The notes under the pieces: generated by a model
Told to the model about the DNA's origin: nothing
Databases searched by the model: none
The model's input: the letters and a program-made list of their open reading frames with translations, nothing else
Program-made: the position numbers and the translations under genes
Origin: Mesostigma viride
Taxonomy: Eukaryota; Streptophyta; Mesostigmatophyceae; Mesostigmatales; Mesostigmataceae
DNA length: 64,000 nucleotides
Assembly: GCA_009746045.1 (NCBI GenBank)
Contig: RPFO01001264.1
Span: 62,001-126,000 of the forward strand
Direction of reading: 5' to 3'
Shown here: one piece after another, positions 22,960 through 36,925 of the stretch
How the letters are laid out: each line of letters starts with the position of its first letter
Position numbering within the stretch: position 1 is the stretch's first letter

Positions 22960-25900
22960 GTATGAAGCAAGTTAAGAGCAATCCACATGCTGAGATCAAG
23001 TCACATGTCGTGTAAATCTTGAATGGATTATGGTGGCGAGGAGTGGCGAACGATAACAATAGCGATAGTAGAACGGATGTTAAAGGTAATGATAGTAGTA
23101 TTTATAATTAATTAGCGTGCAGGTGATAAACTTTATTCATCTCGTGAATACTGTGTGTGAGTCAAGTCCGTTTGCACCCTCTTGTTTTCACTGAAGGACT
23201 TCCGTCCTTTTTCCTCCCCCCCCCCCGCCCCCCTTCTCCCACATTATGCTTCCTCCACTGCCACCCCGTAGTAGTTTTATGCATTCAACCCATGTGACGC
23301 GTGTTGGCATATGATAGGTCCCAACCCGACTGGTCCCATCCCCACCTGGCTGTTGTGCCGCCGCTTTTCTTTCAGGAACCGCTTTTTGCTGTGTTGCCTT
23401 TCTTCCTCTCGCCCCCCCCTGCCCTCCGGACCTGCCACCATGTTTTTTTGAGTGTACTGATTGTCTCCTTGGTACTAGTAGGTGAAAGGGTTTAAATATA
23501 GTGTCCCCTCCCGTTTGCCTTGAACACCCCCTGCGGATGAAACCCATCTCCTGCCTCTCACACCCTGTGCCCTTCGCACCCCATGGCCCCCCCACCCCTT
23601 GCTTCTCCGGTTCCCCCCCCCCCCTTCTGCTCCGTTCACTTCTCCCCGCAACAGAAGCAGAAGGTCGTGGACCCTCGGCGCGAGCTGGCGGCGCGCATGC
23701 GGGAGGACCGCGAGAAGATCGTCAAGTTCTGGACGCAGCTCGTGCGCAAGGACATCCCCAAGGCGCAGCGCTCCTTCTTCGCCGCGTCCAAGAAGCAGCT
23801 CACCGACGCCAAGCGCACCGCGGAGCTCTGCCAGCGAGAGGTGGGCAGATTGTTTTGTGTAAGGGGGGGGGGGGGGGCCTTACACAAAGGTCCTCCCCCC
23901 CGGGTTGTGATGGCAGTGTCTGCATACAGTGTGCACGTCTGCATGTGTCGTGGGCTGTGTGTTGCAACAAAGTGATTCATTTTCCCCATAGCCCACATAC
24001 GAGTTGTAAGGGGGATGGGTTGAGTTTGCAATGATTTATGGGGTGGGTACAATGGTTTTTTCCTTGGGCCCATGCAGGTGTTTTCTGATAAAGTTTTTGC
24101 TTCTCGTCGGCTTGTGTGGATTAATACATGCCCTCTCTACATATGGGATCTGTAAATGTAATCTACCCACCCCTTGCCTTGTGCAGCTGAGGAGACGCAG
24201 CCAGCTTTCTATTTGCATTCACTCTTTATATTAATGAATGGGAGTGATATCTGTGTGTATCCTCCCACCATCCACCAGGTGCGAAGCCGCAGCCAGCGCT
24301 CGCTCAAGGCGGTGCGCGGCGCGCCCGTGCGCATGAAGAAGCTTCTGCGGGACCTGCAAGTGCTGTGGAAGAAGATGGACAAGGAGCAGGTATGGGGACC
24401 GCCGGTGACAAGTGATGGCAGTAAGGATGGCCGGGCGGTGGAAGAAGATGGGCAAGGCGTGTGTGGGTGGGCGGTGGTAGGCAGGGAGTGCCCCCCTGTC
24501 TGAGAATCGTTCATGTCCATGTGTGCACTGTGTCCTGTACCTACCATATTGCTCTGATATTGTGTCCAGTACCATATTGCTGTATGGGCATTTTGTTGTG
24601 CCATGTGCCGTGTGATAGTATTTTTATAGTAGTATTTTTATCGTGATTACTGTCATTATAAGTGCCCTTTGCAGTGCGCCGGACGGAGGTTTCAAACGAG
24701 CTGTTTATTAAAATTTTATCTTGTGGTTCGCTTCAACCAATTGTGGTCATCTCTATGTACTGCGCGCCAGGTGCCGAGCGCCAGAGCGAGATGAAAAGGG
24801 CGCTTGTCCTTCCTTTTCTATTCCTGTGCCCATCCTTTTCTCCTCCTTCGCCCATCCCTTTCTCCTCCTGTGCCCATCCCTTTCTCCTCCTGTGCCCATT
24901 CCGTGGTCGCCTATTTTTGCCATGCGCCGGATCGTGATGAAGAAGACGCCCTCATCCCGTAGTTAACTTGTGTTTAAGTCCAACTAATTATGGCTGTATC
25001 TCTACGTCATGCACCCGGGCCGCAGATCGAGATGAAGAAGACGCGCGAGAAGGAGGCGTACGAACAGCGCAAGCGCGAGGAGGAGCTGAGGGAGGCCCGC
25101 CGCCAGCAGCAGCGCCTCAACTTCCTGCTCACCCAGACAGAGCTGTACACCCACTTCATGCAGAACAAGAACAAGGACGCCGCCGCGCTGGCGTCCGCCA
25201 CCCCCGGCACTGCTGCCGGTGCCGCTGCCTCGGCCAGTAAGCTGGGCGGGGCTGCCTCGGATGCCGCGGGAGGGCCTGCCCGGGAAGGTGCCGGTGCTGG
25301 TGCTAATGGAGACGGTGTTGGGGTTGGTGACGGCGGCCAGAATGAGGAGATGGACGCGGAGGATGCGGCCTACGCGGCGCAGCTGCAAGAGGAGGCGATG
25401 CGGGCGGCCAAGGACGCGGCAGCCACGCAGCTGCGGAAGACGAGCGCGTACGACGAGGAGTCGCGGCGGCTGAGGGACCACGCGGGGCAGCACCAGCGGG
25501 ACAAGGAGAGGGAGCGGAGGGAAGGGGAGGAGGACGAGGAGGACGAGGAGGAGGATGAAGAAGAGGAGGATGGGGAGCAGAAGGAGAGGGCGGGGGGGGC
25601 GGTGGCGGCGGTGGCAGGGGAGGGCGCAAACGGCGCGGCGGAGGAGGGGTTGAATCTGCTGAACCCGTGAGTCTTGGTGGAGTCTGCATAACGTTTCCAT
25701 GGTTTGTGGGTGAAGGCCTGGATTTTCAATGTGTGTCTTTACTGCCTTCGTCGCTCAGGTCTCGATATTTATGCTCCCCAGACTCATGTGCCCGAACTAG
25801 AGGAAGAGGAATCACCTGGCAATGCCGAGTGCAGCCCGTATACCCCAAAGACTATCTTTTGAAAATGTTTCTATTCACCTCCAAAAAAATGATTTCCATG

Positions 25901-36925: not shown

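Follow-up and report, generated by a model that had tools for sequence, protein, structure and literature searches.

Copies of exon ends near splice sites in introns of INO80 and other genes of Mesostigma viride

Results

The introns of the deep-branching streptophyte alga Mesostigma viride often carry a copy of the end of the adjoining exon a short distance inside the intron, and we call such a copy an echo. In the gene for the chromatin-remodelling ATPase INO80, 12 of the 17 introns are echoed at one or both ends at a score of at least 24, which bears out the first-pass annotation of this DNA, where at least ten of the seventeen had been claimed. The echoes are a wider phenomenon than one gene, as they are present in three other gene families, i.e. 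SNF2, kinesin and CCT (PF00118). The evidence comes from one genome and from verified donors of four gene sets. The window referred to below is the whole stretch of 64,000 nucleotides that was analysed around INO80.

The INO80 gene and its surroundings

Our INO80 model has 18 exons (E1 to E18) and 17 introns, with GT-AG at 17 of 17. The gene was identified by its open spliced frame, by INO80 chains as the best PDB matches and by a DBINO domain (PF13892, E 3.2e-43) in the product. Aligned with eight INO80 proteins of plants and algae, the junctions from E2/E3 to E15/E16 are gap-free, except for relatives that have no sequence of their own at the place. Because these junctions are conserved in the alignment of the relatives, the splice sites are known independently of the echoes.

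Several other features of the window were observed. A CAG repeat of ~52 units (21328-21484) gives the first INO80 exon a long polyglutamine tract. In exon 11 (30254-31363) the two ATPase lobes are separated by a large insert, which in part matches INO80 of Mesotaenium, Acorus and Closterium. Long C runs, pure or nearly so, stand directly upstream of the E5 and E7 acceptors, and long G runs are found in introns 9 and 11 (25971-26013, 27004-27028, 28997-29023 and 31681-31701 for the C and G runs together). Outside the gene, a 9-bp repeat, CAACGCGAC, is present in 197 copies at 12665-14442, with all six frames open over ~1.6-1.8 kb. Copies of a retroelement ORF are located at 38759-40152 and 50968-51744; the element is multi-copy and common to many Mesvir1 proteins (69 protein matches, 68 of them named Mesvir1, at up to 98% identity over 82% of the query). 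The second gene of the window is a MYB gene (PF00249, E 1.3e-15), in which five donors and six acceptors were tested and a single echo was found, a 43-bp repeat spanning a donor.

Table 1. Echoes and related features in the window. Lags are given for exon ends and offsets from the acceptor, with a minus sign, for exon starts (bp); E, exon.
Feature	Position	Strand	Lag or offset	Match and remarks
INO80 chromatin-remodelling ATPase gene, 18 exons	19735..36925	+		First exon start uncertain
E3 start, echo on acceptor side, intron 2	24184..24205	+	~-92	18/22 nt; shuffle p 0.0033; score 24
E3 end, source	24362..24384	+	73	21/23 nt
E3 end, echo, intron 3	24435..24457	+	73	
E4 start, weaker second echo	24785..24806	+	-241	Candidate
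E4 start, echo, intron 3	24926..24949	+	-95	19/20 in core
E6 end with donor, source	26507..26531	+	77	24/25
E6 end, echo	26584..26608	+		GTGAG donor intact; intron half duplicated, spacer p 0.012
E7 end with GT, source	27308..27333	+	93	26/26
E7 end, echo, intron 7	27401..27426	+		26/26
E8 end, echo, intron 8	28091..28126	+	103	29/36
E9 end, short copy	28944-28957	+	~+44	13/14
E9 end, main echo, intron 9	29025..29060	+	143	30/36
E9 end, short copy	29147-29163	+	~+254	15/17
E11 start, echo, intron 10	30029..30093	+	-175	47/65
E11 start, second echo	about 30163-30183	+	~-84	19/21
E11 donor, 52-bp tandem array across it	31354..31649	+		Unit of 10 nt exon and 42 nt intron
E12 end, weak echo, intron 12	32255..32274	+	80	Shuffle p 0.047, 0.025
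E13 end, echo, intron 13	33166..33198	+	104	26/33
E14 end, echo crossing donor	33999..34054	+	95	47/56; intron half duplicated, spacer p 0.002
E15 start, several decayed copies, intron 14	34197-34253, 34303-34359, 34492-34524	+		
E15 end, echo, intron 15	34973..34987	+	258	15/15
E16 end, echo, intron 16	35556..35573	+	90	18/18
MYB-gene donor, echo	11901..11932	-	43	Source 11944-11975; exon 12092-11964

Echoes at the INO80 junctions

For each donor a query of 36 nt of exon end and 12 nt of intron start was scored against the intron, with a cut-off of 24. An echo in the own intron was found for 10 of 17 donors and 4 of 17 acceptors, as compared with 0 of 272 pairings with mismatched introns in either case, and the intron on the opposite side of the same exon gave none (0/16 donors, 0/16 acceptors). 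When 14 introns were shuffled with their dinucleotides kept, 13 of 28 junctions reached p<0.01, the floor being 0.0033. Chance similarity is ruled out by the controls with own and other introns together with these shuffles, and the doubt raised in the first-pass annotation, that random or shuffled introns might match equally well, is settled by the same figures. The INO80 echoes are always sense-oriented; reverse-complement queries score 22 at most and the ten echo donors score 30 to 56. The E10 and E12 donors are borderline, and those of E1, E2, E4, E5 and E17 have no echo by score and dinucleotide-shuffle test.

All the individual cases named earlier were recovered (Table 1), namely the ends of E6, E7, E8, E14 and E16, three copies of the E9 end, of which the middle one alone is strong by itself, and, on the acceptor side, both copies for E4, the more distant one for E11 and several for E15. 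Two of the E15 start copies (span 34197..34524) have an acceptor-like CAG. Our analysis added the echoes of the E3, E13 and E15 ends, the array at the E11 end, the echo of the E3 start and the nearer one of the E11 start.

Of 12 listed lags, two of which come from the borderline donors, 9 lie within 70-105 bp. Across 12 donor echoes identity is high between -25 and ~+8 and close to background outside -35 to +11. We also compared the region 23000-36000 with itself at lags of 30-400, with low-complexity matches filtered, and obtained 29 rows. A splice junction is touched by 18 of these (5 being the E11 array), 4 link the E9 or E15 echoes mutually, and 7 are located in arrays within four introns.

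Echoes in other genes

We searched the Mesostigma genome (440 Mb in 2243 contigs; the published assembly is given as 441.8 Mb in PMC6947507) and sampled 30 of 64 SNF2 match rows, 30 of 129 kinesin rows and one extra locus. The CCT sample consists of 20 of 58 match rows, hand-picked before any sequence was seen. The exons outside INO80 are predictions by a small model trained on INO80 that made no use of echoes, and the CCT donors were chosen by site score close to where the homology match ends. The cut-off for an echo in the SNF2, kinesin and CCT sets was a score of at least 26. We excluded low-complexity 30-mers, duplicate queries from overlapping loci and INO80's own loci, as well as predicted exons with a low coding score (<8 in the main SNF2 and kinesin count; <15 in the counts of position and orientation and in the SNF2 and kinesin part of those of spacer and verified total). 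Two contig pairs (C1641/C887 and C622/C2) have identical match scores and are perhaps uncollapsed haplotypes or recent duplicates.

Among all predicted SNF2 and kinesin donors 36 of 144 have an echo, against 65 of 20250 non-self pairs, and among the homology-verified ones 17 of 39, against 17 of 5500. The corresponding acceptor counts are 20/141 against 36/19418 for all predicted sites and 8/32 against 7/4419 for verified sites. Half of the CCT donors (10/20) are echoed, against 2 of 380 random pairs; two of them (L067 and L076) have weak site scores and may be misplaced, and neither reaches 26. With the stricter exon filter, the verified donors with an echo number 37 of 75 (INO80 10/17, SNF2 and kinesin 17/38, CCT 10/20), not all of which are independent because the kinesin paralogues L048 and L057 are related to each other and to L051, and L005 is related to L006. 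The wording "most introns" in the first-pass annotation is right for INO80; elsewhere about half of the sampled donors are echoed. As the pattern is not confined to INO80, the claim stands up to the refutation proposed in the first-pass annotation, namely that other genes of the genome would lack the pattern entirely.

The orientation is again uniform in the SNF2 and kinesin sets. Sense copies were found for 35 of 122 donors, reverse complements for none (0/122 donors, 0/121 acceptors), and the letter-reversed control gave 1/122 and 0/121. These 35 donor echoes have lags from 28 to 414, with 27 of 35 at no more than 150.

Discussion

Origin of the echoes

We lean, with confidence a little better than even, towards recurrent small tandem duplications across splice sites, above all the 5' ones, followed by decay. 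The duplications would mostly be of ~30-150 bp and would recur across the splice sites of the Mesostigma viride genome, each unit comprising between a few and ~35 nt of exon end and the adjoining start of the intron. With splicing still at the outer, original site, the extra copy would be intronic, the protein unchanged and the intron longer. The copy would then decay as non-coding DNA, and its exon-derived half should stay visible longest, since the matching exon sequence does not change. Units that include more of the exon are nearly absent, and the most likely reason is that longer copies would be spliced as real exon ends and selected out; acceptor copies are rarer, perhaps because an intact upstream acceptor would compete more strongly. 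The duplication step might be break repair as known in plants and animals, and the G-rich start of the introns may favour it. The GC skew of the INO80 introns is +0.40 in the first 50 nt, ~+0.1 by 200-300 and -0.49 before the acceptors. A G-rich intron start could promote R-loops and breaks.

Plain tandem arrays span the donor at E11 (52 bp), in L048 and L057 (70 bp, three units) and in the MYB gene (43 bp). The first-pass annotation had read the echoes as duplication across splice sites leading to intron growth or even intron birth; growth fits the tandem arrays and the duplicated intron halves, and birth does not fit, as discussed below.

The position of the sources bears on the choice between this reading and duplication without regard to position. 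A 30-mer centred 10 nt into the exon has a local intron copy at 10 of the 17 INO80 donors, and 30-mers at -40 to -100 have one in 0 of 89 cases. Inside the INO80 introns a local repeat was found for 8/106 30-mers at +20 to +140 and 23/120 at +160 to +300, the latter mostly in arrays in introns 11 to 14 (31/226 over +20 to +300), and the sampled background of the window outside INO80 is 31/1804. For the other verified donors the counts are 14/37 at -10, 36/316 at +20 to +300 and 3/262 at -40 to -100, and for all predicted donors elsewhere 28/117, 122/1008 and 6/744, respectively. The excess of the junction over the intron interior is ~4-fold in INO80, ~3-fold at the other verified donors and 2-fold at all predicted donors. 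The exon part of the echoes is short, rarely exceeding ~35 nt, and the exon interior is almost never a source; like the junction excess over position-blind simulations (below), these points go beyond the first-pass annotation.

Tandem duplication blind to position, with neutral decay, might also yield a junction excess, since copies at junctions would stay visible longer while their exon partner is constant. We consider this account fairly unlikely. Local intron repeats are indeed common, as the interior counts for the INO80 introns and near other verified donors indicate, and the INO80 introns also contain internal tandem arrays of 13-71 bp. We simulated uniform duplication with neutral decay (24 parameter sets, 12 replicates each) and found a junction-to-interior ratio of ~1.6 at most, reached with long exon parts, which is not far from the 2-fold excess at all predicted donors but is exceeded at the verified donors and in INO80. 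Simulations with long exon parts also produce sources at -100 to -40, where hardly any are observed, and when a short exon part is imposed the ratio is ~0.7 at most, i.e. the simulated junction rate falls below the interior rate. Uniform neutral duplication as simulated is therefore not sufficient, its excess of ~1.6-fold at most standing against 2- to 4-fold observed. A simulated donor hot spot of ~20-40 times the base rate reaches the INO80 level. The rates in all these simulations were assumed, so that they serve as a guide rather than a fit. Because the junction excess tops the position-blind simulations, a hot spot of duplication is probable at the 5' splice site.

It is conceivable, although we think it unlikely, that splicing or transcription itself marks the DNA of the 5' splice site for duplication, through a nascent exon end retained by the splicing machinery or an R-loop at the G-rich intron start, and possibly with RNA as the template. 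A junction marked in this manner would be a mutation hot spot, and introns would grow from their own splice sites.

Selection could also keep the echoes, e.g. as decoy 5' splice sites that bind U1 or as a means of splicing tuning, and we consider this quite improbable. The E7 and E16 echoes are fully identical to their sources (Table 1) though their intron flanks are not significantly alike, but the echo donors as a group are weakened, with a mean site score of 2.1 as compared with 6.2 for true donors under a site model trained on INO80 donors. GT is retained in 21 of 34 echo donors where the neighbouring bases predict about 0.74, and 13 of 34 still score at least 4. The intron starts give a mixed result for decoy-donor enrichment, at small counts: AGGT[AG] is not enriched in intron starts (8 versus 9.1 expected), while GGTGAG at +7 to +150 occurs 4 times versus 1.8 in shuffles. 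There is no sign of coding constraint, since the mismatches are spread evenly over the codon positions (13/83, 12/86 and 17/87) and use of the echo donor leads to a stop or frameshift in all 11 INO80 echoes checked; codon-level function and alternative exon ends were rejected on these grounds. Working decoy donors are therefore unlikely in general, though a single echo here or there may still act as one.

Two pairs of paralogues bear on how the copies change with time. The exons of L005 and L006 are 88.7% identical over 301 bp, and from the donor to the next exon the echoes are the sole matching stretches, a point in favour of selection and against our preferred reading. The L006 echo matches the L005 exon end at 35/38 and its own at 32/37, which suggests that it predates two changes in the L006 exon. 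This pair is our best hint that an echo may change more slowly than the intron around it. In L048 and L057 a stretch of 296 bp, made up of the exon end and two units, is 88.5% identical, and the remaining intron has no long match. The copies in each of the two bear that gene's own exon variant, C or T, by eye, which suggests either homogenisation within each array or independent duplication.

Roughly one echo in two retains a duplicated intron half that can be recognised. Of 25 testable echoes in the wider set (lags >160 left out) 14 still show it, and identity falls slowly out to +30. In INO80 it is retained in 3 of 10 echo donors (E6, E14 and the E11 array), with no significant spacer test at E3, E7, E8, E9, E13, E15 and E16. 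Full-unit duplication with neutral decay, when simulated, keeps the intron half in 72-91% of detected echoes, a range above both observed shares. This may mean that part of the copies never contained a full unit, or else that the intron half evolves more rapidly than the model assumes.

Copies of this short type could come from templated insertion, in which the exon end and a few intron bases are copied tens of bp downstream during break repair; in a variant of the same reading the template may be the nascent transcript while it is retained at the 5' splice site. A simulated hot spot of short copies gives 0.09-0.18 at +10 and 0.04-0.07 at +20 to +140, where INO80 has 2/16 and the 8/106 given above, and a hot spot of full units overshoots with 0.27-0.51 and 0.20-0.40. 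The sense-only orientation agrees with such insertion, but DNA-templated repair should also yield inverted copies and none were seen, and no INO80 copy was found in a non-adjacent intron. We hold the reading to be very doubtful, and as the sole mechanism the short copy was rejected, since it fits INO80 better but many full units, with the intron half duplicated too, occur in the other genes.

Birth of the introns from a duplicated exon piece containing AGGT is extremely improbable, for although exon-end copies within introns would be expected right after such births, the echoes begin mostly 45-80 bp past the donor rather than at the intron end, are followed by intron-like sequence and not by the start of the next exon (both by eye), and several exon ends, i.e. 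those of E8, E11, E13 and E16, have no AG. The pattern of the AGGT model, an intron end like the upstream exon end and an intron start like the downstream exon start, was not found. The intron start that follows the echo, clear by eye in E6, E8 and E14, implies that the donor predates the duplication.

Relation to known systems

Tandem duplication across an intron-exon boundary has been described in the potato RdRp gene, where it likewise leaves exon sequence within an intron (PMC4974935). The potato case, as presented there, is a new intron in one gene, whereas in Mesostigma existing introns would grow, and this at roughly every second donor sampled. Proto-splice-site duplication in Drosophila is similar in that splice-site context is duplicated locally, but its source, in the account given, is exonic and the intron position new (PMC2891723), whereas the source in Mesostigma is a working splice site. 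With regard to the repair step, patch-mediated break repair in rice gives tandem or partly tandem insertions from within ~200 bp (Vaughn and Bennetzen 2014, as cited in PMC7407515), a splice-junction preference not being described in that source. Fill-in of breaks with 3' protrusions likewise gives tandem duplications of <100 bp, though in mouse and human cells with induced breaks and with no link to splice sites described in the account (PMC8355091). Introners have changed intron content on a large scale in diverse eukaryotes (PMC9860276), and Mesostigma is absent from the main text of that paper. Unlike an introner, the Mesostigma echo is a copy of the gene's own exon end, in line with the lack of matches of the exon-end queries to other INO80 introns (0/272), and no shared element family was seen by eye, which is how the spacers were compared.

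In the titles and abstract openings of the literature searched, a body with most subscription journals outside it, no genome-wide splice-site echoes are described. Boundary-crossing duplication itself is known; new here are its scale, the shortness of the exon part and the preponderance at 5' splice sites.

Lengthening of introns is usually attributed to transposons. For Mesostigma, the genome paper ascribes the long introns to repetitive elements (PMC6947507). Our data indicate that, of the conserved 5' splice sites sampled in this deep-branching alga, about half have a recognisable duplicate in the intron. Short splice-site duplications would then contribute to intron sequence on a major and measurable scale and would also supply latent alternative donors. 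The junction excess allows a direct question to be tested, namely whether the 5' splice site is a mutational hot spot and whether transcription or splicing is the cause.
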